Assembly: GCA_021199305.1 (NCBI GenBank)
Contig: JAJQIH010000030.1
Span: forward strand, 1-33,829
DNA length: 33,829 nt
Direction: 5' to 3'
From: Ruminococcus sp.
GTDB taxonomy: Bacteria; Bacillota; Clostridia; Oscillospirales; Ruminococcaceae
Shown piece after piece: positions 7,906-33,732 of the stretch. The number at the start of each line of letters is the position of its first letter. Within the stretch, counting starts at the first letter, position 1. The translations under genes were made by a program, and so were the position numbers. Below the pieces are notes generated by a model. The model made no database searches and was not told where the DNA came from. It was given only the letters and a program-made list of their open reading frames with translations.

Positions 7906-7974
7906 AAAAATTGACCTCATATTTGTGACAAATACACAAAAACTTTTTACATCAATGATTAAAAATGACGAAAT

Positions 7975-8468: not shown

Positions 8469-8777
8469 ATGGCAGGTAATGGAGTGCTGGTAACAGATTT
8501 TAATGTTCTTAATTCTGTTCTTGCAAATCTTCAGGAAAAGCTCAGTTCGGCTGGTGAGGATTATATCGGGCTTGTATCTGATGTAGAAATGATTAACAGC
8601 TCCTGGTCTGGTGAAGCACACGACATATTTATGGATACTCTGAATGTTGATGTTGCGGAAGTAAAGAAAATTATTGATGAGCTTCAATGCTATGTAGATG
8701 ATTTTAAATTTGCGGTTAAAGAGTATATGACAACAGAAGAAGAGGTCGGTAATATGGTATCCTCTTTGAATTTTTAA
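8469..8777 (+). CDS. WXG100 family T7SS protein (EsxA-like)
   Basis: A 102-residue helical-hairpin protein of the ESAT-6/WXG100 family, expected to dimerise and be exported by the EssC-type ATPase encoded downstream. The turn motif is Trp46-Ser47-Gly48 in SSWSGEA, at the usual position between two amphipathic helices. A YxxxE secretion-signal motif (Tyr86-Glu90) follows in the C-terminal helix, as known for T7SS substrates. There is no signal peptide. The ribosome site GGAGGTGAT is nearly perfect, suggesting high expression. It is the first gene of the cluster, 15 bp before a second WXG100 gene. Confidence 0.9.
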   Translation: MAGNGVLVTDFNVLNSVLANLQEKLSSAGEDYIGLVSDVEMINSSWSGEAHDIFMDTLNVDVAEVKKIIDELQCYVDDFKFAVKEYMTTEEEVGNMVSSLNF

Positions 8778-8792
8778 GCGGGAGGAATATTT

Positions 8793-9206
8793 ATGAGTTC
8801 AATTAAGACGATGCAAGCAAATTTCCTGACCGGTTCGGACGATCCGGGTTCTTTCCAGAATACATCAATAGAAAATTCTATTATGAATAATTTAACCGGC
8901 ACAGTTAGAGTGTCAGCAGATGAACTTCTTGAAGCATCTGGAAATGTGATCACACGTGCTGCAAGAATTGAGGAATCGCTTCTGGCGTTGATAAGCTGCG
9001 CTGAAAGCACAAATGATATCTGGCAAGGGACATCAGCTGACGAGTTCAGAGCAAGGTGCTCGGCTTACCGTACACCTGTAAGTGAGCTTGCAGAGCATCT
9101 CAGAGAGGGTATGAACAGACTTGAGAAGATCACAGGGCTGTATAATCAGGCAGAATCGAGAATATCGGCCAAGAGCAACGACCTTCCGTCAGATGCAATA
9201 ACTTAA
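8793..9206 (+). CDS. WXG100-like T7SS protein with N-terminal extension
   Basis: A 137-residue relative of WXG100 proteins. The WXG turn is Trp77-Gln78-Gly79 (IWQGTSADEF), and YNQAE (Tyr117-Glu121) fits the YxxxE export motif. The helical hairpin starts near residue 38; the first 37 residues (rich in N, S, T and G) are an extension not usual in the family. The start is supported by GGGAGGAA and by 15-bp spacing from the preceding gene. A heterodimer with the 102-residue protein, like EsxA/EsxB pairs, is the natural inference. A different start further in would shorten it to normal size but has no good ribosome site. Confidence 0.85.
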   Translation: MSSIKTMQANFLTGSDDPGSFQNTSIENSIMNNLTGTVRVSADELLEASGNVITRAARIEESLLALISCAESTNDIWQGTSADEFRARCSAYRTPVSELAEHLREGMNRLEKITGLYNQAESRISAKSNDLPSDAIT

Positions 9207-9255
9207 AGCACAATATGTTGATTATGCAGTAAAGGCTGTATTTATCATAGTTAAG

Positions 9256-9339
9256 TTAAGACGAATAACAGATTTCGCTTAATTTATCCGGAAACAGTAA
9301 GGCTTCTTACTGAAAGCTTGAATGAGGCCTCTCATTCAA
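9256..9339 (+). promoter_or_regulatory. Three tandem RNA hairpins after the WXG100 pair
   Basis: Hairpin 1: TTAAG-a-CGAA (9256-9265) with TTCGCTTAA (9274-9282). Hairpin 2: CAGTAAG (9295-9301) with CTTACTG (9306-9312), loop of 4. Hairpin 3: TTGAATGAG (9318-9326) with CTCATTCAA (9331-9339), loop GCCT. None is followed by a T run. They could protect the 3' end of an abundant WXG100 transcript after processing and lower expression of the genes beyond. Confidence 0.7.
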
Positions 9340-9371
9340 AAGACATACTTTAATATAGGAGGACATTTAAC

Positions 9372-10910
9372 ATGGAAAAACGTAAGTTGGCAGCAAAAAT
9401 ACTATCCTGCGTATCTGCTGTTATGATTATGGCTGGAAGCGGAGCGGTTTCAACTTCAGCTGAAGAGGCAACAACCAACGAAGCTGTAAATGCTGCTACT
9501 GGTGGAATTATCGAAATAGAGGTTCGCTATAATACCACTGGTGAAAAAGGAAAGGGAACGCTTATTCAGACAGGAACGGGATTTCTCATCAATCAGAATA
9601 CATATCTCACCTGCTCTCACGTAATTGAAATCGACGACAGCACAATAGAGGTTCTTGAGAGCGAGTATAATGACGATTACGATCCGGATTACCTGGACAT
9701 CAACGTAATAGTTCGTGGAGATATTATTGAAGAGTCTACAGTAGTAGTAAACAGCGAGGATTATGACTATGCGGTTCTTACTGTTCCTGAAAATACATTC
9801 AATACAAGAACACCGCTTGTTTTAAGCAACTGCGAGAATGTCAAGCAAACTCAGGTGGTTTATGCTCTGGGATATCCATCGGTAGTTTCTTTCAATCAGA
9901 ACAATACAGATTATGCGCCGTTTGATACGGATGACGTAACAGTTTCCGATGGTAAAATTTCCAAGATTGACTACACATTTAACGATGGTATCACTATGGG
10001 ATTGTTTATACAGCATAGTGCAACAATCAGCGCGGGAAATTCGGGCGGACCGCTTGTAGATGAAAATGGATATGTAATCGGAATCAACAAGGGCGTCGTT
10101 GGCGAATACAAATATGCGTTGGAAATAGATCAGGTAATTGCAACTCTTGACGACAAGGGAATTGATTACGATACTCCTGACGACAGCACAACAACGACAG
10201 AAGAGTCAACGGACGAAGAGGTAACAGAGACTACTACTCTTCTGACAACTACCACACAGGCTGCAACTACAGAGGCTGCTACAACTAATGCCAACAACAC
10301 TGGTACAACCTCTGACAGCGACGATGGAGATAACAATTTCATTTTATTTGTTGCAATCTTTGGTGGAGCTGCAGTTATACTTATAGTTGTAATTATAATT
10401 CTTATCGTTAAGAGCGGTAAAAAATCCCCACAGCCTGTAGCTTCAGCACCAATGGCTATGCCAAAGACTGCTCCTCAGGCTACTCCGATAATGGTTGGCG
10501 GACAAAGACCGACTCCTCCGGTTCAGCCTCAAAGCTATCCTGAAACTGGTGCTGGCGAAACAACCCTCTTAGATGATGGCAGAGGAGAAACCTCGTTGCT
10601 AGGCGGCGGAATGCAGTCTGCCAGAGCTATGCTTATCCGTCGCAAGAACGGAACCAATATCCCGATTAAGGGTTCAGAGTTTATTATAGGTAAGCAGAGA
10701 AGCAGAGTTAACTATTGCATAAACAACAATGCAATCAGCCGTCAGCACGCTAAAATTTCAAACAATGGCGGAATCTTCTACATTACAGATATGGGCTCAA
10801 GCAACTATACTTATGTAAATGGAGAAGAAATTGCTCCAAACGTTCCTAAGCAAATTTCCAACGGCGACATTATCAAGCTTGCTGACGAGGAATTTGAGTT
10901 CAGAGGATAA
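9372..10910 (+). CDS. Membrane-anchored trypsin-like serine protease with cytoplasmic FHA domain
   Basis: A 512-residue multidomain protein. A signal peptide (residues 1-31) is followed by an extracellular chymotrypsin-fold protease with triad His83 (LTCSHVIE), Asp132 (DYDYAVL) and Ser224 (AGNSGGPL). A Thr-rich linker (about 272-313), a membrane helix (323-346) and a basic stop-transfer segment lead to a Pro-rich cytoplasmic linker holding ETTLL and ETSLL (396-410). A C-terminal FHA domain (about 418-510) keeps Gly440, Ser456-Arg457-His459 and Asn478, needed to bind phosphothreonine. No PDZ domain, so not a standard HtrA. The layout parallels the mycosins of mycobacterial T7SS, though those are subtilisins. 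The phosphatase gene starts 4 bp downstream. Confidence 0.9.
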   Translation: MEKRKLAAKILSCVSAVMIMAGSGAVSTSAEEATTNEAVNAATGGIIEIEVRYNTTGEKGKGTLIQTGTGFLINQNTYLTCSHVIEIDDSTIEVLESEYNDDYDPDYLDINVIVRGDIIEESTVVVNSEDYDYAVLTVPENTFNTRTPLVLSNCENVKQTQVVYALGYPSVVSFNQNNTDYAPFDTDDVTVSDGKISKIDYTFNDGITMGLFIQHSATISAGNSGGPLVDENGYVIGINKGVVGEYKYALEIDQVIATLDDKGIDYDTPDDSTTTTEESTDEEVTETTTLLTTTTQAATTEAATTNANNTGTTSDSDDGDNNFILFVAIFGGAAVILIVVIIILIVKSGKKSPQPVASAPMAMPKTAPQATPIMVGGQRPTPPVQPQSYPETGAGETTLLDDGRGETSLLGGGMQSARAMLIRRKNGTNIPIKGSEFIIGKQRSRVNYCINNNAISRQHAKISNNGGIFYITDMGSSNYTYVNGEEIAPNVPKQISNGDIIKLADEEFEFRG

Positions 10911-10914
10911 TATA

Positions 10915-11682
10915 ATGAATTTTATAACATCAGTGTATACCGATGTTGGAATCAAGAAAAAAACAAATCAGGATTCGGCGTTAGTTCTTGAAGCTGAGAC
11001 CGATTTCGGACAAGTGCTACTGGCTGTGATATGTGACGGCATGGGCGGCCTCGCAAAAGGCGAGGTCGCCAGTGCGGCACTTGTTAATGCTTTCAGGGAT
11101 TGGTTTAAAAACGAGTTGCCTGAATTGATTTGTGAGGAACTTGACCAGCAGGCGGTTTTTAATGCTTTTGGTAATATTGCATTTGATATGAATGCCAGAA
11201 TCGGTACTTATGGAATGAATATAGGCGTAAATTTGGGTACCACTGTAGCTGCAATGCTGATTATAAACGGCAGATATTACATTATGAATATCGGAGATTC
11301 TCGCGTTTATCGAATGACAGATACAATAGCTCAGCTCACAAAAGACCAGACATATGTTCAAAGAGAAATGGACCTTGGTAGAATGACTCCCGAAGAGGCT
11401 CAGGTGAGTCCGCAAAGAAATGTACTGCTGCAATGTATAGGTGCAAGCGATATTATCAAACCAGATTTCTATACTGCACCTGTAGGTTCAGGCGAATGCT
11501 TTTTGCTGTGTAGTGACGGCTTTCGTCATGTGATTACTTCGGAGGAATTATACTCAAGGATAAATCCTTTTGTGCTGAAGGATGAGAGAACGATGCTTGA
11601 ATCACTTAAGTATTTTACAGAATTAAACAAAAACAGACGCGAAACGGATAACATTACGGCTATTCTTATTCGTGCGGATTGA
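10915..11682 (+). CDS. PP2C-family serine/threonine protein phosphatase
   Basis: A 255-residue cytoplasmic, metal-dependent phosphatase of the bacterial PrpC/Stp type that would reverse phosphorylation by the kinases of this cluster. Metal-site motifs are all present: Asp20 in TNQDS, Asp41-Gly42 in CDGMGG, Asp128 in GDSRVY, Asp201 in SDGF and Asp245 in ETDNI. The start at 10915 lies 4 bp after the protease stop with an AGAGG site; an upstream extension to 10819 would overlap the FHA coding region and adds unrelated sequence. Phosphatase followed by kinase is the classic bacterial pairing. Confidence 0.92.
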   Translation: MNFITSVYTDVGIKKKTNQDSALVLEAETDFGQVLLAVICDGMGGLAKGEVASAALVNAFRDWFKNELPELICEELDQQAVFNAFGNIAFDMNARIGTYGMNIGVNLGTTVAAMLIINGRYYIMNIGDSRVYRMTDTIAQLTKDQTYVQREMDLGRMTPEEAQVSPQRNVLLQCIGASDIIKPDFYTAPVGSGECFLLCSDGFRHVITSEELYSRINPFVLKDERTMLESLKYFTELNKNRRETDNITAILIRAD

Positions 11683-11693
11683 GTGGATAAATT

Positions 11694-13472
11694 ATGCTTG
11701 AAATTGGTCAGCTTATAGACGGAAAATACAAAATATTAAATAAAATCGGTCAGGGCGGTATGAGCGTTGTTTATCTTGCTATGAACGAAAAGGCAAATAA
11801 ACAATGGGCAATCAAAGAGGTACGCAAGGACGGCACAAGGGACTTTAATGTGGTAAAGCAAGGCTTGGTCGCAGAAATAGATATGCTTAAAAAGCTGAGT
11901 CACCCTAATCTTCCGAGCATTATTGACGTTATAGACAGCGATGATACATTCCTCATAGTAATGGATTATATTGAGGGAAATCCGCTAGATAAACGTCTTA
12001 AGGAATTCGGAGCTCAGGATCAGGACGACGTTATTGAGTGGTCAAAGCAGCTTTGTGATGTTCTTGGATATCTACATTCGAGAAGACCGCCTATAATTTA
12101 CAGGGATATGAAACCGTCAAATGTTATGTTAAAGCCTGATGGTTCGGTAACCTTAATCGATTTTGGTACGGCGAGAGAGTTTAAGTACGGAAATGTTGAA
12201 GATACTACTTGCCTTGGAACAAGAGGTTATGCAGCACCTGAGCAGTTCGGCGGACATGGACAAACTGACGCCAGAACTGATATTTATAATCTGGGTGCTA
12301 CTATGTATCATCTGCTTACAGGACACAACCCCAGCACATATCCATATGAAATGTATCCTATAAGGCAGTTTAATCCGATGCTTTCGTCAGGCCTTGAAGA
12401 AATAGTTTTAAAATGCACGCAGGCAAATCCTGCTGAAAGGTATCAGTCTTGCGCAGAGCTTATGTATGCTCTTGAAAACTACCAGGAGCTGGATGTCGAA
12501 AATAAAAAGGTTCAAAGGTTTAAATGGAAGATTTTCCTCATCTCAGCAATTACCTGCGTTGTAATGGCGCTGGGAACAGTAGGCTTCAAGCTTCTGGAAA
12601 ATATGCAAACGGCAGATACATATGATTCTTATGTCAAGAATGCAGCAAGTCAGGAAACTATCGACGAGGCATTTCAATATTTTGAAAACGCAATAAACCT
12701 CCAGCCTGAAAACGCTCTTGCGTATAATAAAATGCTGGAGTATATCGCTGACGACGATGTATTTACTGCCGATGAGAGTACAAGGGTTATTAAGCTTACC
12801 GGCAACCTTGACGATTTCAGAAAAGGAAGTCCTGAGGAATACGCAGAGTTCTGCTACAATCTGGGAATTTATTACTATTTCTATTATGACTCCAACAACA
12901 ATGCAAACAGCTCGATTGAGGGTATGAAAAAATCAGCTACGTGGTTTGCAAATGCGGAGGATATCGAAGAGTTTATGAACAATTCTCAGGATGCAGAGCT
13001 TGTCAAGATTTTACACACTATGGCAAAAAATTCGTCTGGCGAGAAGTGGGGAGCGATAAATGAAAAGTCAGGCGATGTTGATGCCGACGCAAGCTATGCT
13101 GCTTACTGGAATGATATTGAGACAATAACAGATTATGATATTGCTGAGATGAAAAATGTAAGTGTGGCTTTGGCGATTTACAAAAATTTCGCAATTACTA
13201 TAAAGGGAGAAGCTTCCGAGTTTGCAAAGGTCAGCGGCCTTACAGAGTCTGATGTTTTGGACAGACTCAATACTATGGCGGCTTATGTGAACGAGGCAAA
13301 TTTAAATAAATATGAAAGCTACAATTACGAAGCTCATTCGTTGAAAATCAGCGAGCTTGAAGAACTGATTGAAGAAGCAAAAAGTGCAGTTTCTTTGGCT
13401 TATAACGCAAAAACGACTGAAACAGATTCAAGTGAGCAGGCATCGGTAGCAGGCGGGGAGGAGAATACATAA
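11694..13472 (+). CDS. Membrane Ser/Thr protein kinase 1 with extracellular helical domain
   Basis: A 592-residue Hanks-type kinase. The cytoplasmic kinase domain (about 10-265) has the glycine loop GQGGMSVVY (19-27), Lys41, Glu61, catalytic YRDMKPSN (Asp138), DFG (Asp156) and a PEQ in the APE position, so it should be active. One membrane helix (about 279-299) is followed by about 290 extracellular residues, mostly helical and TPR-like, with no PASTA repeats. This is the topology of EssB/YukC, the pseudokinase of Firmicutes T7SS. Likely targets are the TTLL-motif proteins and FHA partners nearby (inference). Its stop codon overlaps the next start by one base. Confidence 0.9.
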   Translation: MLEIGQLIDGKYKILNKIGQGGMSVVYLAMNEKANKQWAIKEVRKDGTRDFNVVKQGLVAEIDMLKKLSHPNLPSIIDVIDSDDTFLIVMDYIEGNPLDKRLKEFGAQDQDDVIEWSKQLCDVLGYLHSRRPPIIYRDMKPSNVMLKPDGSVTLIDFGTAREFKYGNVEDTTCLGTRGYAAPEQFGGHGQTDARTDIYNLGATMYHLLTGHNPSTYPYEMYPIRQFNPMLSSGLEEIVLKCTQANPAERYQSCAELMYALENYQELDVENKKVQRFKWKIFLISAITCVVMALGTVGFKLLENMQTADTYDSYVKNAASQETIDEAFQYFENAINLQPENALAYNKMLEYIADDDVFTADESTRVIKLTGNLDDFRKGSPEEYAEFCYNLGIYYYFYYDSNNNANSSIEGMKKSATWFANAEDIEEFMNNSQDAELVKILHTMAKNSSGEKWGAINEKSGDVDADASYAAYWNDIETITDYDIAEMKNVSVALAIYKNFAITIKGEASEFAKVSGLTESDVLDRLNTMAAYVNEANLNKYESYNYEAHSLKISELEELIEEAKSAVSLAYNAKTTETDSSEQASVAGGEENT

Positions 13473-14134
13473 TGAGTAGTGAAAATCTTATCTCTATTTA
13501 TCATACCGCCTTTATAGTCTGCCTGGCGTTTTGTATTCTTTTCTTTGTTTTATCAATAGTGATGTTTTTCGCTTTTGATATAAAGAGAATCTACGGGATT
13601 CTGACAGGAAGAGTCAGGAAAAAGACTATTGAAGAAATGACGCAGCAGACGGAACAAACTGGTCGATTGCTAAAAAACGCCAGGAAGGGTTCGCAGTCTG
13701 CATCGTTCTCGAACAAGCTTGATAAAATCAGGAACGACATTAACGCTCCGCCTGAAAGCAGTCACGTTGAACCGATAAGCACAGCATATAAACCTCCTGA
13801 GCCGGTTCCGTATCAGGACCCACAGCAGGATATGCAGACTACTTTGCTGGATATTGGCGCGGATCAGACAACACTTCTTGAAGAAAATACAGCGAAGGCT
13901 GATCTCGGGCAGGAAACAACCGATAGTCTTCCCAAAAATAGTGGAGAGAAGCCGCAGGAAAGTGCAAAGGATAAAGCCTTTACACCTGTTAACTTTGAAA
14001 TTGGCGAAGGCCACACAATGCAGCTCTCGTCAAATATGATAAAGGAAGCAAAGCCCAGAAACGTAAAGTTTGTTATTGTAAAGGAAAATCTCCTTACACA
14101 CACCGAGGAGAGAATTGATTTAAATCAGCAATAA
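13472..14134 (+). CDS. Single-pass membrane protein with TTLL motifs
   Basis: A 220-residue protein of no recognised family. An N-terminal membrane helix (about 13-36) leads to a cytoplasmic tail by the positive-inside rule (KR and RVRKK follow the helix). The tail is charged, proline-rich and probably disordered, and carries two copies of QTTLL (122-126 and 132-136), closely resembling ETTLL and ETSLL in the protease of this cluster. These look like threonine phosphosites for FHA binding (inference). The last 50 residues (from NFEIGEGH) may form a small beta structure. It overlaps the kinase 1 stop by 1 nt and has a GGGGAGGAG ribosome site. Confidence 0.75.
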   Translation: MSSENLISIYHTAFIVCLAFCILFFVLSIVMFFAFDIKRIYGILTGRVRKKTIEEMTQQTEQTGRLLKNARKGSQSASFSNKLDKIRNDINAPPESSHVEPISTAYKPPEPVPYQDPQQDMQTTLLDIGADQTTLLEENTAKADLGQETTDSLPKNSGEKPQESAKDKAFTPVNFEIGEGHTMQLSSNMIKEAKPRNVKFVIVKENLLTHTEERIDLNQQ

Positions 14135-14169
14135 ATTACCGGAATTTTTTAAGAAAGGGAGTAATTTTT

Positions 14170-17100
14170 ATGAGGAGTAGGATGAACAGTAATAGCAAAA
14201 AAGTTTTGTCGAAGATTATTGCATTCAGCGCAGCTTTAGCTATTGCGGTTACAATGTTAGGAGTTGATTTTTCGCAGTTTATTAACGCAGGCTTTTTGTC
14301 ATCAAAAGCTGCGGCTGAAGAACCAAGTGCAAGCTGCAATTATAGTGCGGGGGATACGGTTTCGGTGACGGTAACTCTAAAAGAAAGCACAACCGAAGCT
14401 TCTTCTGAATCCAGCACGACAACTACAACAACTACGACAACCACAACCACTACAACATCAGTAACCACAACGACAGCAGCTACAAAAACGTATACTGTTA
14501 GTATTGATGATGGCGATGCTGAGTATGTAAACTTTGGCAAAGATAGCGATGAGCCTATAACATCTAAAACAGTATCAGGGGATGCTGAAATAGAAGTTTG
14601 TGTCGTGGAAACAGATGTATGGTGTTTTGATGACAATGGTACTGAAATAACATCGACAACCCTAAATGTAGCAGATGATTTTACAAATAATGAAGCTACG
14701 CTAGTGTTAACTTTAAAAACGTACAACGTTTCTATTGGCAACGCTAAAGTGGAAACTCCACACACGGATAATAGTGATGTTGGCTATGTCCACTGGGGAG
14801 ATACTTTTGTTGTAACGCCTGAAACTGGATATTGTTTCTCGGACAAAACAACAGATGCAAAATCATTCGTTTATGGAACTGACACTATGCCATCAATGGA
14901 AGCCATTGAATATAAATTTGATTTTGTTGACGGTGCTGACAGTTACTTTAGTAGCTACAGCAAAAACTTCACAGTAGAAACAACTGATTCTCTCACGCTT
15001 ACTGTCGATAGCGATAAATACGAAATTGAGAGCGGCGTTTCAATTAACAAAAACACAAACGATTTATCGTATTCAAATGGTGTCTTTACTTATACTGGAA
15101 CAATAAGCGGAAATTTGGAAGTAAGCGTGGATGCTAATAGTGTTAAGTACAAAGTATCTGGTGCGTCTGAATTGGAAGAAATTGATGAGATAAAAGTCGA
15201 TTCTGATTATTACAAATCAGGTGAAACTGCTTCGTTTACTGTTAATTCAAAGAACGGTTATAAGAGCGTTACTGATACAGCTAGTATAAAATTTACAGAT
15301 TTAGAAGGAAACACAGTTAATATAAGTAGTTTAAGCTATGACGAGAACGAAGGAAAATTCAGCTTTACTATGCCTGCTGAGCCTATAATAATATCAGCAA
15401 GCACATCTCGAATTTCTCTATCAGATAACTGCGTTTCTGAATATGGTACCTTAAGTGGACTTAAATTTGTTAACAACACCGCTTCCTTTACAATCACACC
15501 AAATGGCGACGCTTATAGCGTAGCTAATGTTTCAGTGACATATGGAGATAACACGCCTGTAGATGATCTGAATTTAACGAATAATAATACTTCTGTTTCT
15601 TTCTATGTTAACGGCTTGCACGAAGACGTTACGGTTGCAGTTACTTATAATTTGACGTTGAAGATAAGTGCAACAGAAAATGGTAAAATTACTTTCAATA
15701 ACGTTGTAGAGGACATTGAAGGCAACAGCATTACTGCAAGCAGACCTGGTGATGGAACACAGAAAATAACGTTTACTGCTGCTACCGATAGCAATACCAA
15801 ATACCATATTAGCGAAGTAGAAGTTAGTGGAAAAGTAAACGGAGAAGATAAAACTGAAAAGGAAGACAACTTCACACGCGAAAGTGTTACTGAAACATAT
15901 ACTGTAGATGACCTGTTAGGATTTATATCTACGAATACGGATAGCGATTCTCTTAGTGACATTACAGTAAGTGTTACCTTTGCGATTAACGAATACAATA
16001 TAAGCACGGACAAAGTTGAAAATGGCAAAATAGAAATTAAAGATTCTCCTGTAAAATCTGGCGAGTCTTGCACAATCACCGCAACACCTGATAGCGGATA
16101 TTATGTATCTGAGCTTTACTATTATCCAAAAGATAACAGTAGTGCAAAAACGTATGTATATAATACAGCTGGAGACGTTGATGTTAAAAATGATGTAGCA
16201 ACGTTCAACTCAGACGGAAGTGTAACTTATGAATTAACATCTATCACATCCGACTACACATTTGTAGCTGAGTTTGAGGAAATTGAAGAAGACGATAATA
16301 TTACTGAAACTGTTACACAAACAGATGACGATACAAATCCTAATGTTATAGGCTCAGATAATAAATACACTATTAAATCTGGAACAAACTTTACGGTCAG
16401 CTTATCATATAGTGATATGGCTTACGTGAAAGATGTAACGGACTTTACTGAAAATAATACAGATAATAGTGCAGACGAGTCGTATAAATCATACACGGAG
16501 CCTTATGAGTATGAAAATATCACTTCTGATGTCGATTTAGTTTACTATGTTGTTGACAGCAATAAAGTTATTACGATGTGTACTGTTTCGATTAAGGTTG
16601 ACAATATAGCTCCTGCAGTAGAAGCTGATATTCCAACTGAATGGGATAATGATACAGAATTTACAGTTACTGTAAAGGATAAGCCAAACGCAAATGGCAT
16701 ATTCTCAGGCATTGAAAAGATCGAGTATAGTTTTGACAATGAAAACTGGGTATCGATTGAAGGTGCAAAAGAACAAGAGACACAATATGGTACGGTCAAG
16801 TTGAGTTCTGATTACGTATCTCAAGAAATCATTGCTACATTTAGTTTTACAAAAGATTACAATGGCGAGATCTACGTCAGAGCATATGATGATGTAGAAA
16901 ATTGTAACGAAAACTGTGAAAAGACTCTGGGCAAAGTTCAAAACGACGTAACCTCGCCGACGATAACAAAAGAAAGTGAAAACGAAGGCGGATATTTTAA
17001 TGATGATAAGCAAACATATTTCGTGAATACTACTCTTAATTTTAAGGCAAGTGATGCTCTCAAAGAAACCATAAAGGCAGATTCTGGATTGAATTATCTG

Positions 17101-24144: not shown

Positions 24145-24246
24145 ATGAAATATATAGTAACAGGCGCAGCACTGATAGCTTTGGCAATAATTATATTTAT
24201 TGCTTCTCAGATATTGCTGAAGCGCTGGTTTAAAAGCTTTAAGTAA
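24145..24246 (+). CDS. 33-residue single-pass membrane peptide
   Basis: A short ORF, starting MKYIVTGAALIALAI and ending KRWFKSFK. It is one hydrophobic helix (about 3-25) with a basic, aromatic C-terminal end, predicted to stay in the cytoplasm. GGGGAG lies 12 nt upstream of the ATG, a little far but usable. It sits co-directionally between two cluster genes in a gap otherwise empty. Not a recognised family; it may be a small regulatory subunit of a neighbouring membrane protein. It could be a chance ORF. Confidence 0.5.
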   Translation: MKYIVTGAALIALAIIIFIASQILLKRWFKSFK

Positions 24247-24298
24247 AAAGCAGCACAACATTAACAAGAATTTAAATAATAACAGGGGAGAAGATATT

Positions 24299-24925: not shown

Positions 24926-24980
24926 TTGCTTTTGCAGAGTTTTGTGTCAATATCATTCAAATAAGAAGGTGTAAAGCTTT

Positions 24981-26537: not shown

Positions 26538-26568
26538 TTGCGTATTGTCTTTAAGTTGGTGATAGAAA

Positions 26569-27102
26569 ATGCTGCTGGAAATTTTAATAGTGCTGTTGGT
26601 GTGTGTAGTCGCTGCAGCAATTTTTCTGAATGTTAAACGTCTGCGCAAATCCGAGCGGATGATGTATCGTGCAGCTGGAAACATACTGAAAAATGAGTTT
26701 CTGAATTATTCGCTGCACAATCCGATGTTAAAAAGCAGCAGCAACAAAGAGCCCAGAATGAGAAAACCGATGCTGTATATAAAAACGGTTGGCACAAAGC
26801 CGTTGAAGGAATATGTTTTTGATCCGGAAACTGTCGTGAAAATTGGCAGAAGCCAGGAGCTTAACTCTATTGTACTCAACGAAGCCATTGTTTCTATAGA
26901 GCATTGTTTCATCTTTTTGTTGGGTGAAAATATAGTTTTGCGTGATTGCGCTTCTTCAAACGGTACGTTTATCCGCCGTGGATCCCATTCGTATATAGTT
27001 TCTCCCGGACAGCAAATTGTTCTGAAAAGCGGAGATGTTCTGAAGGTGGGATCGACTGCATTTAAAATCAAGATTTTTCTTTACGATATGACTTGGATGT
27101 AG
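26569..27102 (+). CDS. Membrane-anchored FHA-domain protein
   Basis: A 177-residue protein with an N-terminal membrane helix (about 2-21), a basic stretch (NVKRLRKSER) that places the rest in the cytoplasm, and a C-terminal FHA domain (about 68-170). FHA landmarks are Gly93-Arg94-Ser95 and SSNGT (129-133). The usual SRxH is SIEH (109-112), so the arginine at the second position of that motif is changed; the Ser and His are kept. It probably binds phosphothreonine on a cluster protein and recruits it to the membrane next to EssC, whose gene begins 25 bp downstream. Confidence 0.88.
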   Translation: MLLEILIVLLVCVVAAAIFLNVKRLRKSERMMYRAAGNILKNEFLNYSLHNPMLKSSSNKEPRMRKPMLYIKTVGTKPLKEYVFDPETVVKIGRSQELNSIVLNEAIVSIEHCFIFLLGENIVLRDCASSNGTFIRRGSHSYIVSPGQQIVLKSGDVLKVGSTAFKIKIFLYDMTWM

Positions 27103-27127
27103 AGGACAAAAGGAGGGGTAGATTCAG

Positions 27128-30100
27128 ATGATTATAATGATTTCCAGAACAGATGCACTGCAGGAATATTTACTGCCTCAGACTGACGGCTTGGATTTTT
27201 CAATAACGCTTGACAGTAAAAAGTTCAGCCTTTCAAAGGACGTTACTGTGATGCTTGAGGTTACAGGCGGACAATGGTTTGTCAAAGAATCATCTGATTA
27301 TACTCTTGAAAATTGCGGCGCAGGCTTTGAACGCAAGCCGTTTATCGGTGGCGACGTTTTACAATTCGTTACAAAAAATGGCGAACGATTCAAAGGCGTT
27401 GCGGTTGATGATGAAGAGCGCTTTGCTATTTATAAAAAATATAATATTGTCGGTCAACCGATGATAACTATAGGTGCGGATTCAAAGTGCGACATATCAT
27501 ATACGTTTATGAATTACGTTTCCAAAAGTCACGGAAGAATTGTTTTGGCAAGCGGGAATTGGATAGTTGAAGACACAAGCGTAAACGGAATCTTTGTAAA
27601 TAATGTCAGAATTAAGGGAAGCAAAAGGCTTGGCTTCGGTGATGAGATAAATATTTTTGGCTTGAGAATTGTATTCTTAGGTGAAATTATCGCTCTTGGA
27701 ACGCATTACGGCTCAATACTGGTAAAAAACATAAGGCAGCTGAAAAAGGAAAAGCAGGAGGAATTTCAAAGGCAGCAATACGTTGAACAAAAGAAAATGT
27801 TTCATCGTTCGCCCAGAAATATCCCTGTTATTTATAGCGATTCGATAAAAATTGAGCAGCCGCCTGAGCCTCAGATTACAAAAAAGCGTTCGCTCTTGAT
27901 GCAAATCGGTCCATCATTTACAATGGCTATACCAATGCTGCTCGGCTGCGGCCTTGCAATTTATAGCTCCCGACTAAGTGGAATCAGCTACGGAGCGTTT
28001 ATGTATACGGGAATGATTACTGCTGTCGGAGCAGCGGTATTCGGTTCCTTGTGGGCAATTATGAATATCCGTAATGAGAAGAAAGAGGAAATTGAGCTTG
28101 AAGACAAACGCATAGATGCTTACGGAAATTATCTTATAGAAATTTCCAAGGATTTAAGAGAAAAGTACGCTCACAATCGCCAGGCGATGCTTGAAATGTA
28201 TCCTTCTGCAGCTCAGTGCTGCGAATACACAAATAATTCTCCTGAGCTTTGGTGCAGAAACAGCAGTCATGATGATTTCCTGTTTTATCGTCTTGGACTT
28301 GGAAGCATTCCTTTTCAGATGAAGGTTTCCATGGAAGAAGAGAAGTTTACTGTAAACTCTGACTTTCTTAAAGAAAAGCCCAGACTTTTGCATGATGATT
28401 ATCAGATGCTTGAACAGGTGCCGGTTGGCATTGATTTTAAAGAAAATCAACTATTTGGAATTGTCGGAGGAAAAAACAAGGAAGGCGCAATGCCAATAAT
28501 GCGAAGCATTGTTGCACAGATTGCTGCCAATAACTGCTACACTGACGTCAAAATGATATTTGTATACGATGAAAGCCGCGTATCGGACAAGCGTCAGTGG
28601 GAGTCGATGAAATGGTTACCACACGTGTGGTCCGAAAACAGAAAGACGCGTTTTGTAGCTTCAGACATCAACGAGTGCAGGGATATATTTTATGAAATAT
28701 CTGCGGCTATTCGTCGCCGTACAGAGCTTTATGACAGCTCTCAGTCAGAATTTGTTTGCAAGCCGCAATACGTTATGTTTGTTTCAGATGCTGAGCTGCT
28801 TGAAAATCAGTTGCTTGCCAAGTATGTTTACAATCCAAAGCCTGAGTATGGCCTGGCAACATTTATCCTTACCGACAAGTATGAAAATCTTCCCAATGAA
28901 TGTGAATTTGTAATTGAAAATACTCATTCTTTTCAGGGCCTGGTACGTACAATGTCCTCAAGTAATGACAAAACTGAGATAGCGTTTGATAACGTTTCGC
29001 CTGAACAGCTTGTGGCATTTGCAAAAAACATTACCGATTTGCAGGTTCAGGAATTTGAAAGCGAAACTGAAATTCCATCAGATCTTGACTTTTTCGGGAT
29101 GTATGGCGTCGATTCAATCGAAGATTTCCACGTTCTGGAGCAATGGTATAAAAACCGTACATACAATTCTATGAAAGCTCTGATAGGAAAAAAGGCAGGC
29201 GGCGCAGACTGCTATCTTGATATACACGAAAAATTTCACGGACCTCACGGACTTGTTGCAGGAACCACAGGTTCCGGTAAGAGCGAGCTTTTACAAACGT
29301 ATATACTTTCTATTGCGATGAATTTCAGTCCTGACGATGTCAGATTTTTGATTATTGACTTTAAAGGCGGCGGAATGGCAAATCTTTTTGCTGACCTTCC
29401 TCATATGGCAGGCAGAATTACAAATCTTTCTGGCAATCAGATCCGGCGGGCAATGATCTCAATTAAAAGTGAAAATCGCCGCAGGCAGAGGATTTTCAGC
29501 GAGTATGGTGTTAATAATATAAATTTATATACCAGGCTGTATAAAAGCCGGGAAGCAAAAACTCCTGTACCGCATCTTATAATAATCATTGATGAATTTG
29601 CAGAGCTGAAAAAGGAAGAGCCTGATTTCATGCGGGAGTTAATCAGCGTTGCGCAGGTAGGCAGAAGCTTAGGTGTACATCTGATTCTTGCAACTCAGAA
29701 GCCGAGCGGAACTGTTGACGATAATATTCGGACAAATTCTAAATTCCATCTTTGCTTGCGGGTTCAGGACAGACAGGATAGTATGGATATGCTTCATAAG
29801 CCTGACGCTGCGTATATAACTCAGGCAGGAAGAAGCTATCTTCAGGTTGGAAACGACGAAATATACGAGCTGTTTCAATCCGGTTGGAGCGGCGCAATTT
29901 ATGATAATAATACGTCGGCGAACGAAACTGGTATTGCCAAAATGATTACCCTGACGGGAAAGACTGCTATAGTTGGCAGTCAGATCAAGATGAAGCAGAA
30001 AGAAAAAGAACGTGTTCGTTGGTATGACGCTATTATAAAGGCAACAGACTACATATACAGGCAGAGTGATTTTGAAAAGCCGATAGCAGAAATGTCTCCC

Positions 30101-32086
30101 ACACAGTTAAATGAACTGGCGGGTGCGGTTTCCGCTGTCCTTTCAGAGCAGTATGATTATGGAACGGCAGATGCAGATGTCCGTGCTGTTGAAAATTTCA
30201 TAAAGCTTATGTCTGAAAAAGAGTGTAAAAGTGGTGCTGAGGCGAATAATTATGTTCAGGAGGCATCAAACGCAGGCATTAAAATTCCTGAAATAAAGGA
30301 AAAGACTCAGCTTGAGGTGCTGGTAAAGTATCTTAAAAACCTGGCAATAGAAAATGGCTTTGCGAATGATATAAAGCTCTGGCTGCCGTTATTGCCTGAA
30401 AAATTACTGTATTCCGCTTTGGCAACAGAAGCCAAAGAAACTTTCAAGGACAATGAGTTTTCCCTGAATGCTGTTGTCGGAATGTACGATGATCCGGAGA
30501 ATCAGCTTCAGATGCCTGTGAAAATTGATTTTGCAACAAGCGGACATCTTGCACTATGCGGAACGGTAGTCAGTGGAAAAAGCACGTTTATGCAAACTCT
30601 GGTCTATGCTTTAGCAAAAGATTATACCCCTGATGCGTTAAATATTTACATACTTGATTTTTCAAATCGTATGCTTTCTTGTTTTGAAAGGCTACCGCAC
30701 ACGGGCGGAGTGATGTATGAGAACGATGCTGATAAGATTTCAAAGTTCTTTGCACTGATCGAAAAAATCATAACAGAGCGTCAGAGTGCGTTTGGTGGCG
30801 GAAACTATGGCCAGTTTGTCAGAGCTTATGGAAGAAAATATCCTGCCGTACTTGTCGTAATTGATAATTTTGCTAATTTCAGAGAAAAAACCAGTGGGGC
30901 TTACGATGCTGCTGTTTTAAGACTTGCCCGTGAAGGGGTAAGCTGCGGAGTGTATCTGGCTATATCGTCAGCAGGTTTTGGTATGAATGAGATTCCAACA
31001 CGAATTGCTGACAATATCAGAAATGTCGTCTGCCTGGAAATGGGAGATAAATATAAGTATATGGAAGTCCTGAGAACGGCTCATTTAAGCGTCTTTCCTG
31101 AAACTGATATCAAGGGTAGAGGACTTATAAAGGTTGATGAGCGAATTCTTGAATTTCAGACTGCTCTTGGCGTAGATGCTCCCGATGATTACAGTCGTTG
31201 TGAAAGGATTGGGAAATGGTCTGAAACGCTTCGGCAAAACTGGAAAGGAAAGCAAGCTGTTGCAGTTCCCTGTATTCCGAAAAATCCAAGCTATTCCGAT
31301 TTAAAGAAAACAAGCGGATTTGACAAAGCTTCACAAAGCGCTTGCTTGATACCGCTCGGCTACAATCAGACTGACGCTTCGTTAGAATGCATAGATTTAG
31401 AAAAAACGTATTGCTATGCTATATCCGGTAGAGAAAGAACAGGAAAAACCAACGCTTTGAGGATAATAATGCAAGGAGCAGCACAGAAAAACGGTAAGCT
31501 TTTTGTAATTGAATGCAGTACGAGCAAGCTAAGACATCAGGCAGATTTACTCGGTGCTGAGTATATTTCCAGTGAAGAGGGTATTTTTGCTTTTTTAAAT
31601 GAAATAAAGGAGCCTTTTGTTGAAAGAAACAGAAATAAGCACGAGCTTTTGAATTCTGGTATGACGGAAAGCGAAATCTTTGCTCAGATGCAGAAAAAAC
31701 AGCCATACTTTATCTTTATTGCTTCGCTCGAAGAGTTTCTGTCAATGACATATGAGCCATCAGAAAAGGTTGGTAAGATGAGCGGCTTTGTTGAAAATAT
31801 TTTTGACAAAGGTGCGCTGCACAACATCTATTTCTTTGCCGCAACAGATCCCGACAATTACAGTACCCTGGCAGCAAGACAGGCGTACAAGCAATTTGCA
31901 AAGTACAAGAAGGGAATACATCTGGGCGGATGCCTTGACAAGCAAAAATTGTTCTCTGTTACAAATATTCCATATACTGAGCAGCCGAAGGCTATGCCAA
32001 AGGGCGTAGCAATAACGCCGCTTGAATCTGACGAAAGCGTAGTTAAAAAAATAGTCATTCCACTTTTCGGGGGTGACGAAGAATGA
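27128..32086 (+). CDS. essC: EssC-like FHA-FtsK/SpoIIIE ATPase, T7SS motor
   Basis: A 1652-residue membrane ATPase that powers export of WXG100 substrates. N-terminal FHA-like beta domains occupy about 1-90 and 95-190 (the second has SKSH and SVNGIFVNN). Two membrane helices (about 258-312) are followed by a linker and three FtsK-type ATPase domains. D1 has Walker A GTTGSGKS (712-719) and Walker B LIIIIDEF (Asp822-Glu823), so it is intact. D2 has GTVVSGKS (1145-1152) but IDNF at Walker B (Asp1246-Asn1247). D3 has GRERTGKT (1434-1441) with the acidic site changed to ASLEE (1532-1536). Degenerate D2/D3 sites are usual in this family. The start follows AAAGGAGGGG. It overlaps the next gene by 4 nt. 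Confidence 0.95.
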   Translation: MIIMISRTDALQEYLLPQTDGLDFSITLDSKKFSLSKDVTVMLEVTGGQWFVKESSDYTLENCGAGFERKPFIGGDVLQFVTKNGERFKGVAVDDEERFAIYKKYNIVGQPMITIGADSKCDISYTFMNYVSKSHGRIVLASGNWIVEDTSVNGIFVNNVRIKGSKRLGFGDEINIFGLRIVFLGEIIALGTHYGSILVKNIRQLKKEKQEEFQRQQYVEQKKMFHRSPRNIPVIYSDSIKIEQPPEPQITKKRSLLMQIGPSFTMAIPMLLGCGLAIYSSRLSGISYGAFMYTGMITAVGAAVFGSLWAIMNIRNEKKEEIELEDKRIDAYGNYLIEISKDLREKYAHNRQAMLEMYPSAAQCCEYTNNSPELWCRNSSHDDFLFYRLGLGSIPFQMKVSMEEEKFTVNSDFLKEKPRLLHDDYQMLEQVPVGIDFKENQLFGIVGGKNKEGAMPIMRSIVAQIAANNCYTDVKMIFVYDESRVSDKRQWESMKWLPHVWSENRKTRFVASDINECRDIFYEISAAIRRRTELYDSSQSEFVCKPQYVMFVSDAELLENQLLAKYVYNPKPEYGLATFILTDKYENLPNECEFVIENTHSFQGLVRTMSSSNDKTEIAFDNVSPEQLVAFAKNITDLQVQEFESETEIPSDLDFFGMYGVDSIEDFHVLEQWYKNRTYNSMKALIGKKAGGADCYLDIHEKFHGPHGLVAGTTGSGKSELLQTYILSIAMNFSPDDVRFLIIDFKGGGMANLFADLPHMAGRITNLSGNQIRRAMISIKSENRRRQRIFSEYGVNNINLYTRLYKSREAKTPVPHLIIIIDEFAELKKEEPDFMRELISVAQVGRSLGVHLILATQKPSGTVDDNIRTNSKFHLCLRVQDRQDSMDMLHKPDAAYITQAGRSYLQVGNDEIYELFQSGWSGAIYDNNTSANETGIAKMITLTGKTAIVGSQIKMKQKEKERVRWYDAIIKATDYIYRQSDFEKPIAEMSPTQLNELAGAVSAVLSEQYDYGTADADVRAVENFIKLMSEKECKSGAEANNYVQEASNAGIKIPEIKEKTQLEVLVKYLKNLAIENGFANDIKLWLPLLPEKLLYSALATEAKETFKDNEFSLNAVVGMYDDPENQLQMPVKIDFATSGHLALCGTVVSGKSTFMQTLVYALAKDYTPDALNIYILDFSNRMLSCFERLPHTGGVMYENDADKISKFFALIEKIITERQSAFGGGNYGQFVRAYGRKYPAVLVVIDNFANFREKTSGAYDAAVLRLAREGVSCGVYLAISSAGFGMNEIPTRIADNIRNVVCLEMGDKYKYMEVLRTAHLSVFPETDIKGRGLIKVDERILEFQTALGVDAPDDYSRCERIGKWSETLRQNWKGKQAVAVPCIPKNPSYSDLKKTSGFDKASQSACLIPLGYNQTDASLECIDLEKTYCYAISGRERTGKTNALRIIMQGAAQKNGKLFVIECSTSKLRHQADLLGAEYISSEEGIFAFLNEIKEPFVERNRNKHELLNSGMTESEIFAQMQKKQPYFIFIASLEEFLSMTYEPSEKVGKMSGFVENIFDKGALHNIYFFAATDPDNYSTLAARQAYKQFAKYKKGIHLGGCLDKQKLFSVTNIPYTEQPKAMPKGVAITPLESDESVVKKIVIPLFGGDEE

Positions 32087-32796
32087 TTACTATGCTGATA
32101 TGTTCAACCAACGCAAGGGAACTGCAATTCATTCTGTCAAAATGCAAAAGGCAAGGAGAGCTTTGCAGCGATGAACGCTGGAATTATGTAACCTGCACGG
32201 ATGAAAATACATTGACAGAAGCTTTAAACAAATGCGAGTGCTATGATATAGCCTGTATAGATCTGACGCTGAAAAACGGACTTGAAACGGCTCAGCGCCT
32301 GCGACGGGTCAATCCAGCGGCGCATATAATGGTTATTGCCAACAAAAATATTTCGCCGCTTGAGTATGTGCGTCCCTCGGTCGTACCAGCAGGACTTATG
32401 TTAAGACCGCTGAACGGGAAGACGCTTGCCGAATCTCTGGAGGAGAATCTGTCAGCGTATTTAAAGAGCTTTTACGGGGATAATTCTGTCGCAAGCTTTG
32501 CCATAGACAACAAAGAGGGCAGACGGCTTATCCCATATACCCAGATAATGTATTTTGAGGCAAGAGAAAAAAAGATTTCTCTATTTACGTTGAACAGAGA
32601 ATACTCTTTTTATGACACTCTGGACAATCTCTCTGAAATGTTGCCTGACAACTTTATCCGTTGCCATCGTGGATTTATAGTAAACCGTGAGAAAATAAGC
32701 CAGATAATGCTTTCTCAGAATACGATAATACTTACAAACGGTGGAATGATACCAACTTCACGAACATATCGTGCTGTTGTTAAGGAGCTGAAATGA
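32083..32796 (+). CDS. LytTR-family DNA-binding regulator with degenerate receiver
   Basis: A 237-residue protein. The C-terminal LytTR DNA-binding domain (about 135-237) is clear: IPYTQIMYFEAREKKISLFT and FIRCHRGFIVNREKI. The N-terminal half resembles a response-regulator receiver with Asp60 (ACIDLTL) in the acceptor position, but the paired acidic residues after strand 1 are missing (ICSTN) and the conserved Lys-Pro is Arg108-Pro109. It may therefore not be phosphorylated in the usual way. No histidine kinase gene is nearby. Its coupled position after essC (ATGA overlap) suggests feedback control of the secretion locus (inference). Confidence 0.85.
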   Translation: MITMLICSTNARELQFILSKCKRQGELCSDERWNYVTCTDENTLTEALNKCECYDIACIDLTLKNGLETAQRLRRVNPAAHIMVIANKNISPLEYVRPSVVPAGLMLRPLNGKTLAESLEENLSAYLKSFYGDNSVASFAIDNKEGRRLIPYTQIMYFEAREKKISLFTLNREYSFYDTLDNLSEMLPDNFIRCHRGFIVNREKISQIMLSQNTIILTNGGMIPTSRTYRAVVKELK

Positions 32797-33479
32797 TGCA
32801 AGGAGAGGTAAACTGCGGGTATATATTTACCGCTGAGGAGCTGGCAACCATAATATACGGACTTGGCGGCGAAAGCTTTTGCGGGTTGCCTGTTGCAGAC
32901 GTAAAGCTTGACGTGGAAGAAGAATCCCGTGCAGTGAGAAGACTTATCAATAAGAATGTGCTTTATTGGGAAAACGAACGCTATGTGCTGGAAAGTAAAT
33001 TCCGCTGTGTGTTTGATGCAATGCTCAAGGGGGAAAGAAAGGTTACCATTACCTCCAAAAATTACCGTACAGTTGTATATGCTTGCTATGCGCTTGATGA
33101 CGGACTGGCAGTATGGAAGTTTTCGGCGATTCGTGCAAAAGACTGTACGTTGTATATCACTGACAAAGACAGCTTTGTTGAAATGCTGTGTTATGATGAT
33201 TTTTTGCCCCGTTTGCCTGAACATTATTCTTTGCTACCACAGGATTTTGATGAGAAATTCAGACAAGCTGTAGAACTTGTACGGCTTGGCAAGCAAAGCG
33301 GAGCGGGAATAAGAATAGTCCTGTGCGCACTTGCAAACGATGGAAACTTGCTTGTAGCATCAACTGGCGTATATGGCAGCGTTAAAACTGTCAGCAGCGA
33401 AGGAACGCTTGTCCATAGTAAATATATAGCGCAGGATTTTGAATGTGAGCTGAAAAACTTTTTGAGTCGGAAGGAATAG
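32793..33479 (+). CDS. Uncharacterised T7SS-cluster protein
   Basis: A 228-residue soluble protein with no signal peptide or membrane helix, and no family I can name. The N-terminus (FTAEELATIIYGLGGESFCGLP, then SRAVRRLINKNVLY and ERYVLES) looks like a helical or winged-helix-like start; the middle and C-terminal parts alternate beta and helix. A distant likeness to EspG, the WXG100/PE-PPE chaperone of mycobacterial T7SS, is suggested by the opening eLa..lyGL pattern and by its place in the cluster, but this is weak inference. It overlaps the LytTR gene by 4 nt; a second ATG directly follows the first and either could be used. A yukD-like gene follows after 4 bp. Confidence 0.7.
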   Translation: MMQGEVNCGYIFTAEELATIIYGLGGESFCGLPVADVKLDVEEESRAVRRLINKNVLYWENERYVLESKFRCVFDAMLKGERKVTITSKNYRTVVYACYALDDGLAVWKFSAIRAKDCTLYITDKDSFVEMLCYDDFLPRLPEHYSLLPQDFDEKFRQAVELVRLGKQSGAGIRIVLCALANDGNLLVASTGVYGSVKTVSSEGTLVHSKYIAQDFECELKNFLSRKE

Positions 33480-33483
33480 TATT

Positions 33484-33732
33484 ATGACTGAACTTGAGAT
33501 ATATGTAATGGCAGTAGGTGAGAAATTGAATTTTCAGCTTGACAGACGCACGCCGCTTAATCTGTTAGCGGACGAGATAGTAGCTATGGTGGGACAAAAG
33601 GAACGCTGTGAAATAAATATCGAAAATGAAACGTTGATTTTTTACAGCAAAAAAAGACATACGATTTTTAATGGAAAGAAAACGCTCGAAGAGCTTGATA
33701 TATCATCCGGGGAAACGCTTTACCTGATATGA
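33484..33732 (+). CDS. YukD/EsaB-like ubiquitin-fold protein
   Basis: An 82-residue cytoplasmic protein of the WXG100-cluster ubiquitin-like (YukD) family. The beta-grasp pattern is visible: strand ELEIYVMAVG, strand KLNFQLDRRTPLNLL with helix, and the ending KKTLEELDISSGETLYLI, which is typical of ubiquitin-like folds. The length matches YukD/EsaB, known accessory factors required for or modulating T7SS activity; there is no C-terminal Gly-Gly. Its presence beside EssC and WXG100 genes confirms the locus as a Firmicutes-type T7SS. The start follows AAGGAA, 4 bp after the preceding stop codon. Confidence 0.88.
   Translation: MTELEIYVMAVGEKLNFQLDRRTPLNLLADEIVAMVGQKERCEINIENETLIFYSKKRHTIFNGKKTLEELDISSGETLYLI

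Follow-up and report, generated by a model that had tools for sequence, protein, structure and literature searches.

We have analysed a 33829-base stretch of DNA (the window), one entire contig of a Ruminococcus sp. genome of 1.74 Mb given as 99.96% complete, which carries a type VII secretion system (T7SS) locus at positions 8469-33732. Judged by its sequence, the locus resembles the published T7SSd, T7SSe and T7SSj. Our preferred reading, which we hold tentatively and at slightly less than even confidence, is that of a clostridial T7SS of the d/e/j kind, with an active phospho-signalling module, anchored in the membrane, that would stand in place of EssB and EsaA. We propose it because kinase and PP2C phosphatase genes cluster with essC above chance, because the gene order is conserved and because a threonine motif is enriched in two of the protein families.

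An earlier note on this DNA had recognised EssC, two WXG100 proteins, a YukD-like protein, two membrane kinases, a PP2C and three FHA domains in this interval, all of which were seen again here, and had proposed a new system in which secretion is gated by reversible threonine phosphorylation. Garrett, Higginson and Palmer (2024, PMC11217815) had named T7SSc-j, many of which have kinases, PPM phosphatases and FHA proteins, and had described an immunoglobulin (Ig)-like giant with a signal peptide and a C-terminal transmembrane segment (TM), as well as unstructured proteins with one TM; control by phosphorylation was also suggested. Since phospho-control of T7SSc-j already stands in the text of that survey, the central idea of the earlier note is not new, and a T7SS with kinase, phosphatase, FHA proteins and giant had in general been described. 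The earlier interpretation is partly supported and largely anticipated in print, and three additions are made to it here: a protease-FHA membrane protein, arrays of a threonine motif and a gene block shared with Tad-pilus loci.

Core proteins, kinases and the surroundings of essC

The EssC assignment was firm (Table 1). The small T7SS proteins were weaker, with one of the three (WXG100 protein 2) above its Pfam cut-off and with W-S-G and W-Q-G found in the WXG100 sequences. The kinase, PP2C and FHA matches in the window exceeded the Pfam cut-offs, including the FHA domains that the earlier note had placed on the protease, the 177-residue protein and EssC.

The absence of a visible EsaA or EssB, also remarked upon earlier, extended to the whole genome: the profiles for EssB (YukC, PF10140) and EsaA (TIGR03929, N-terminal model) gave no match in it, the B. 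subtilis control being positive for both. The sole NCBIfam match to EssA among the ten of 15 locus proteins scanned scored 13.6 bits (cut-off 32.45) and fell on the TM region of the protease. Among 26 genomes with EssC, EssB was matched in two (one above cut-off) and EsaA in three (none above cut-off). With so few matches, the lack of both is common in the clostridial sample and not specific to the window.

In the T7SSb of S. aureus and B. subtilis (EsaA, EssA, EssB, EssC and YukD), the FHA part of the ATPase is described as binding the pseudokinase EssB/YukC (PMC9600267). The window shares with T7SSb an EssC with FHA, YukD and WXG100 proteins, and its first membrane kinase (PK1) and EssB are alike in topology, an EssB-like kinase topology being stated for TscD in PMC11217815. 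It differs from T7SSb in that EssB and EsaA profiles match nothing in the genome and in that its kinases have catalytic motifs. PK1 as a sequence homologue of EssB was rejected: a profile of its ectodomain found tetratricopeptide (TPR) proteins of the PDB and no EssB in the best 60 of 64 matches (E up to 10). A single-sequence AlphaFold2 model of PK1 was unusable (mean pLDDT 35.2).

The catalytic motifs of PK1 are intact (GxGG, AIK, YRDMKPSN and LIDFG, with DFG), and those of the second kinase (PK2) are variant (HNDIKPAN, DFN). In kinase-domain trees, which leave out the G068_13294 and G196 rows, kinase 1 copies from T7SS, Tad and free-standing contexts formed one clade of 13 (support 100/98). 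This clade was separate from kinase 2 and from another PP2C-linked kinase on contig C39 of the same genome, which was taken for PrkC. Kinase 2 grouped with the EssC-locus kinases of genomes G068, G001, G193, G069, G090, G475 and G440 (100/99); its position beside G475 and G440 was less sure (99/89, then 90/89), and some branches were long. The kinase 1 ectodomain profile matched 10 of 391 genomes of the class, six with and four without an EssC match at 1e-100.

EssC itself was matched, the own genome included, in 12 of 150 relatives at 1e-50 and in 29 of the 391 class genomes at 1e-100, and of seven loci from named genomes, four held full-length relatives (three Lachnospiraceae, one Ruminococcus). 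A plasmid origin was rejected for this lineage, as 23 of 72,556 plasmid records matched EssC at 1e-50 and none of them over 80% of its length. We have then counted kinase and PP2C genes within 15 kb of essC in 42 EssC loci from 41 genomes, some of them closely related, so that the loci are not independent. A kinase was present in at least 23 loci (1.75 expected under random placement), a PP2C in 19 (1.48 expected) and both in at least 17 (0.07 expected). The kinase counts are lower bounds, the kinase list reaching down to about E 1e-17; the count leaves out G532 and G066, uses rounded genome sizes and takes EssC ends extended from open reading frame (ORF) calls. The window itself is scored as lacking a PP2C within this distance, as the giant gene sets the PP2C 16.2 kb off. 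The earlier note had staked its proposal on conservation of kinase and phosphatase genes next to essC, and both were often found there, above chance.

In a tree of 42 EssC rows (quick method, SH-aLRT support, relatives found here, with the broken L021 and G070 left out), the window fell in an eight-row clade (support 100) and, within it, in a subclade with G045 and STD2 (99). The order protease, PP2C, kinase 1, scaffold, giant, kinase 2, TPR518, FHA177 and EssC is kept in the window and G045, and in STD2 over two contigs. A Ruminococcus metagenome-assembled genome (L021:5400-14200, EssC 71% identical) holds a decayed copy in the same order, with protease and PP2C truncated, a remnant of the giant, kinase 2 and EssC broken and kinase 1 missing, which suggests that the system is dispensable there and undergoing loss. 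In G455b, PP2C, kinase and scaffold lie immediately upstream of EssC. The neighbourhood of kinase, PP2C, protease and giant pointed out in the earlier note is kept in order in this subclade; it is not universal, and its kinase block also occurs independently of T7SS. Elsewhere in the same genus, G001:C6 (L039, L040) carries an EssC of another clade, near the f52 family, with its own kinase, PP2C and DUF6382-like FHA proteins; there are therefore two kinds of T7SS within the genus.

Threonine motif arrays and the protease-FHA protein

Two short threonine motifs stand in the cytoplasmic tail of the small membrane scaffold and two in the linker of the protease-FHA protein (Table 1). Across 11 protease-FHA proteins, the linkers between TM and FHA domain held 16 T[TS][LV]L motifs in 1006 residues, with ten proteins carrying at least one and five of the 11 having two or three copies; shuffling these linkers 2000 times gave 0.073 on average and never more than 2. 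In the scaffold family, 37 T-x-[LVI]-[LI] motifs were found in 12 of 13 members, one to nine in each (5000 shuffles: mean 3.46, maximum 12), and 30 motifs of a stricter pattern, the one applied in the cluster scans below, in 11 of 13 (mean 0.73, maximum 5). Since the profile used to gather the members derived in part from tails with motifs, motif carriers may be over-represented.

Motif clusters were present in 13 of 747 ORFs in 45 neighbourhoods, and in 2 in one shuffled set. The 13 comprised six protease-FHA proteins, one protease-FHA relic (L021), four scaffolds and two kinase-adjacent proteins (G475, G440). None was found in 575 ORFs of the own genome outside the window (691,514 bp, a 40% sample). 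This background is non-random: 39 contigs contributed up to their first 20 kb each, C39 an internal stretch of 20 kb and C44 19 kb, and C42 and C43 were left out. Unlabelled ORFs below 150 residues were skipped in the locus motif scan, and those below 100 in the neighbourhood and own-genome cluster scans. The two kinase-adjacent proteins (in loci L079 and L122, respectively) have seven tandem repeats of the DDQTVLLN / DEGTVLLNN type near the kinase in an EssC locus, and the one in G440 starts with a zinc-ribbon-like stretch.

The constant positions of the motif are the first Thr and the Leu or Ile at +3, and the phosphorylated ETTSVF motif of OdhI/GarA resembles T-x-[LV]-L. From the sequences, the arrays of T-x-[LV]-L in the protease linker and in the small membrane protein family would be a new part of these systems.

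Hydropathy predicts that the protease-FHA protein has its trypsin-like domain outside and its FHA domain inside the cell. Its gene lies 16.2 kb from essC in the window and 14.0 kb in G045, and on another contig in STD2. In the f52 family, which falls elsewhere in the EssC tree, it was found 0 to 5.1 kb from essC in G525, G490, G175, G455 (C11) and G325, and in two copies, at 9.1 and 13.9 kb, in G455 (C6). By alignment, the window protein has the triad H83/D132/S224, and the His-Asp-Ser triad is complete in the own genome, G045, STD2 and RUI574b. In the f52 proteins, the Ser is replaced in seven of seven (three by Cys) and the His in five of seven. A protease-FHA protein thus appears to be a new part in the essC loci of two distant EssC clades, predicted to be catalytic in one and degenerate in the other.

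A protease fold that is conserved yet often dead indicates a structural role. The MycP protease fold is subtilisin-like. The window protein differs from mycosin in being trypsin-like with a cytoplasmic FHA tail, and we claim no homology; the likeness lies in an external serine-protease fold as a T7SS part. MycP is described as essential for ESX secretion, and the protease activity of MycP1 as dispensable (PMC5082899), which the degenerate f52 triads would suggest for the present protein too. By this analogy, a mycosin-like structural role is more likely for the external fold than general proteolytic processing. The word "trypsin" is absent from the main text of PMC11217815, where "protease" is used two times and refers to mycosin in each case.

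In the class sample, matches spanning both the protease and the FHA regions came from the own genome (G000), five f52 EssC genomes and G411, a genome without close EssC in whose trypsin-like protein the FHA profile did not confirm an FHA domain. In L177 (G411) and L132 (G532), a trypsin-like membrane protein, with FHA in L132, is clustered with PP2C, FHA proteins and kinases, with no EssC in the stretch; this is a further protease-phosphosignalling cluster.

The same block in Tad-pilus loci

A class search with the protease-FHA protein reached G350, G168 and G365, which have no EssC match at 1e-100; genomes "without close EssC" are meant in this sense, and a more distant T7SS ATPase is possible in them. 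In all three (L178 and L182 of G350, L180 and L183 of G365, L179 of G168), a DUF6382-FHA protein precedes PP2C, kinase 1 and scaffold; G168 has two ORFs for membrane proteins in between. The giant then follows in G350 and G365, and the G168 contig ends before it. In G350 and G365, the two genomes covered by a scan for Tad genes, Tad-pilus genes lie upstream of the block and run the same way. Those of G350 were TadZ, a TadA-type ATPase, two T2SSF proteins (one below cut-off), a Flp1-like pilin, TadE, a TadG-like protein and a prepilin peptidase, and those of G365 a TadA-type ATPase, TadE and a prepilin peptidase.

Single-sequence comparison of the window with G365 gave 2.3e-164 for kinase 1, 1.3e-72 for PP2C and 1.1e-101 for the giant, values that refer to a small set of fetched ORFs; the reversed giant sequence gave no match in that set. 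Compared with the window, the G350 and G365 loci have close homologues of PP2C, kinase 1 and giant and a scaffold of the same family in the same order; a pilus machine replaces EssC, WXG100 and YukD, and the DUF6382-FHA protein replaces the protease-FHA. DUF6382 itself occurs in 126 of the 391 class genomes. The block of PP2C, kinase 1, motif protein and giant in Tad loci of genomes without close EssC looks like a new part as well, and a reading in which the kinase module belongs to T7SS only was dropped on finding these homologous blocks. Searches of the open-licence PMC library brought up PMC11217815 as the one paper with a bearing on this Tad link; it mentions Tad genes beside T7SSg and T7SSh, and none were seen there for the present block.

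It is possible, though we would not call it probable, that the block is a portable phospho-docking module that recruits either a Tad pilus or a T7SS through a partner FHA protein (DUF6382-FHA, protease-FHA or the EssC FHA), the d/e/j systems having taken it from pilus loci, or the reverse. An unlikely alternative is that PP2C, kinase 1, scaffold and giant make up an independent envelope-signalling or adhesion module that merely adjoins the T7SS genes. The Tad loci of genomes without close EssC fit this alternative, as does G235, where the block has two FHA proteins and the giant and where neither EssC nor Tad genes were noticed in view. In four f52 genomes, moreover, the PP2C, kinase and scaffold block lies away from essC. 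In those same four, the motif-bearing protease-FHA gene stays with essC and not with the kinase, which speaks for a tie to the secretion machine; so do the order kept with EssC in the window and G045, partly also in the L021 relic, and the position of PP2C, kinase and scaffold directly before EssC in G455b.

Gene run, proposed mechanism and relation to described systems

The locus is a run of 15 genes, all on the forward strand, in the order given in Table 1, and 97 nt of sequence are visible past yukD to the contig end. Five of the genes had gone unnamed in the earlier note (those of the 220-residue membrane, zinc-ribbon, 518-residue TPR, LytTR and 228-residue proteins). The overlapping joints of 1-4 nt that it had listed were found as 1 nt at 13472 and 4 nt at 22071, 32083 and 32793. 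A 92-nt overlap of protease and PP2C was rejected as translational coupling, being an artefact of a mechanical ORF start at 10819; the Met at 10915, directly 3' of the protease stop, is the likelier start.

Table 1. Features of the T7SS locus in the window, with the matches on which they were assigned (TM, transmembrane segment; aa, amino acids)
Feature	Position	Strand	Evidence
WXG100-type protein 1, 102 aa	8469..8777	+	PF06013 18 bits (cut-off 27.3), TIGR03930 26 (cut-off 44.85), both below; WSG present
WXG100-type protein 2, 137 aa	8793..9206	+	PF06013 27.6 bits, barely above 27.3; TIGR03930 30.3, below 44.85; WQG present
Protease-FHA protein, 512 aa: trypsin-like domain (predicted outside), TM, motif linker, FHA (predicted inside)	9372..10910	+	Trypsin_2 7.7e-24; FHA 4.1e-17
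Two T[TS]LL copies in the protease-FHA linker, T397 and T407	10560..10601	+	motif scan
PP2C-type phosphatase, 255 aa from likely start	10915..11682	+	PP2C_2 39 bits; NF033484 3.3e-49, 167.5 bits, below cut-off 230
Membrane kinase 1 (PK1), TM, TPR-like helical ectodomain	11694..13472	+	Pkinase 162.6 bits; ectodomain profile
Small membrane scaffold (G220), N-terminal TM, low-complexity cytoplasmic tail	13472..14134	+	family of 13 fetched members
Two TTLL copies, scaffold residues 123 and 133	13838..13879	+	motif scan
Giant Ig-like surface protein, 2634 aa, signal-like N-terminus, C-terminal TM	14170..22074	+	Big_13 and Flg_new_2, both below cut-off
Membrane kinase 2 (PK2), TM, TPR ectodomain	22071..23993	+	Pkinase 112.7 bits; TPR
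Zinc-ribbon membrane protein, 208 aa	24299..24925	+	PF13240 6.6e-08
TPR protein (TPR518), one TM, 518 aa	24981..26537	+	TPR_11 28.9 bits
TM and FHA protein (FHA177), 177 aa	26569..27102	+	FHA 7e-12; GR / SxxH / NGT canonical
EssC-type FtsK/SpoIIIE ATPase, 1652 aa, N-terminal FHA	27128..32086	+	TIGR03928 1085.7 bits (NCBIfam cut-off 778.4); FHA 43.2 bits
LytTR response-regulator-like protein, 237 aa	32083..32796	+	PF04397 8.8e-24
228-aa protein, slot before yukD	32793..33479	+	no Pfam or NCBIfam match
YukD-like protein, 82 aa	33484..33732	+	PF08817 21.1 bits, below cut-off 27

From genes, domains, conservation, motif enrichment and the homology and order shared with Tad loci, we infer phosphorylation, docking, gating and membrane topology as follows. 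The module would consist of PP2C, kinase 1, motif scaffold and Ig-like giant, joined here to the protease-fold/FHA membrane protein. Kinase 1, and perhaps kinase 2, would sense through its TPR-type ectodomain and phosphorylate the first Thr of T-x-[LV]-L on the scaffold tail and the protease linker. The FHA domains of the 177-residue protein, of the protease and possibly of EssC would bind these phosphothreonines, assembling the machine beneath the giant, and PP2C would reverse the phosphorylation. Such phosphothreonine-FHA docking would replace the fixed EssB-EssC contact of T7SSb, and the giant would take the envelope-spanning role proposed for TsdI. Kinase 2, TPR518, FHA177 and LytTR may form a second, EssC-proximal part.

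Several observations weigh against this mechanism. Among the three FHA domains, canonical GR occurs only in that of FHA177; the corresponding residues are GA in EssC and GK in the window protease, and all aligned protease FHA domains have Lys in place of the GR arginine. One of the 11 protease-FHA proteins, RUI574b, is free of the motif, and so is the scaffold of the closely related G045. The motif patterns were defined after the window had been viewed and were widened once. The link between the constant +3 position and FHA recognition draws on general background, namely the reading of the +3 residue by FHA domains. STD2, which is among the closest relatives, encodes an EsaA-like protein (106.2 bits, cut-off 122) on another contig, one of the three EsaA matches given above. 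The kinase-essC link is common and not universal, since in 19 of the 42 loci the matches listed include no kinase within 15 kb of essC. The kinase, PP2C and scaffold block lies apart from essC in the four f52 genomes; as the module occurs without EssC in Tad loci, it may work alone, and T7SS is perhaps not its sole client. The gating of secretion by phosphorylation is read from sequence and stays putative.

An improbable alternative is that the kinases act on transcription, a signal to LytTR switching the operon with no phospho-gating of the machine. It would be compatible with the LytTR gene found directly 3' of essC in the window, RUI574, STD2, G068 and G045, with the LytTR protein of the NC2004 EssC locus (L022:23922-24947), which has a C-terminal FHA match of 2.1e-10 and is cut by the stretch end, with T[TS][LV]L motifs in the RUI574 LytTR protein and in a second LytTR protein encoded by G045, and with the IreK-dependent T7SS transcription cited in PMC11217815. 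In the window LytTR protein, however, FHA match and T[TS][LV]L motif are both missing, and most motifs and FHA domains are on membrane components. In the stretch covered, the NC2004 locus (Lachnospiraceae) contains EssC and a kinase, and the kinase 1 block was absent from it.

As for the other EssC-proximal genes, TPR518 occupies the same position in G045 and STD2, and the zinc-ribbon protein profile matched itself alone in the neighbourhood set. The 228-residue protein as an EspG-like chaperone was rejected, pairwise and profile comparisons with same-slot proteins having given nothing; a two-sequence model was unusable (mean pLDDT 38.9). Proteins of 250-270 residues occupy a similar slot in other loci, and homology to the 228-residue protein was not found with phmmer or hhalign. 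Upstream, 7543-7920 on the reverse strand encodes by eye an XRE-type helix-turn-helix regulator, divergent from the T7SS operon and about 550 nt before the first WXG100 gene. A RhuM-family protein (PF13310, 377.7 bits) lies at 1185-2231, between aldo-keto reductase and MgtE genes. Neither RNA families at gathering score nor tRNAs were found within the window.

The locus could also be an ordinary T7SSe-like one, its remaining genes being TseD, F, H, I, J and K and the differences normal drift, which we regard as rather unlikely. The composition fits A, A2, B, C, D, F, one of H/K and, by architecture, I. Two WXG100 proteins and a YukD-like TseB are shared (one WXG100 and the YukD of the window being below Pfam cut-offs), as are the membrane kinase TseD and the PPM phosphatase TseF, matched by domain and architecture only, and a TseI-like giant with signal peptide and C-terminal TM, likened by architecture and sub-cut-off Ig matches. 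Of the TseH/TseK type (one TM, short unstructured tails), the window has one protein, at 13472-14134, likened by description. The ATPase FHA of T7SSe has conserved phosphothreonine residues; that of the window keeps SxxH and NG, and the usual arginine of GR, present in the EssC of STD2, is replaced by alanine.

According to the text of PMC11217815, however, every T7SSe locus has the DUF6382-FHA protein TseJ, of which TsjJ of T7SSj is by its name the orthologue, and DUF6382 (PF19909) gave no match in the own genome; for this reason we did not file the window under T7SSe or T7SSj. It is like T7SSj in a kinase with TPR ectodomain (TsjD; PK2 here), a giant and a PPM phosphatase. With T7SSd, as with T7SSe, it shares an EssC with N-terminal FHA, a membrane kinase, a one-TM protein with unstructured tail and an Ig-like giant. 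T7SSd is a system of Actinomycetota without a YukD-like protein, whereas the window has one and its nearest named relatives are Ruminococcus and Lachnospiraceae. Beyond both T7SSd and T7SSe, the window adds the protease-FHA, a second kinase lineage (kinases 1 and 2 fall in separate clades), TPR518, the 177-residue FHA protein and LytTR, and neither the motif arrays nor the Tad relation of the block was seen in PMC11217815.

For the phospho-signalling reading that we prefer, the interest lies in function. The published T7SS subtypes, as set out in the 2024 survey, list kinases, FHA proteins and a one-TM unstructured protein without a mechanism, and this locus gives a testable one: the motif arrays offer the one-TM protein a job, that of a phosphothreonine docking platform for FHA domains. 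The protease-FHA protein can be set beside mycosin, in systems to which the main text of that survey assigns no trypsin-like component. The presence of the same block in Tad loci links two unrelated envelope machines by shared signalling, and would explain why the giant surface protein and the kinase travel together.

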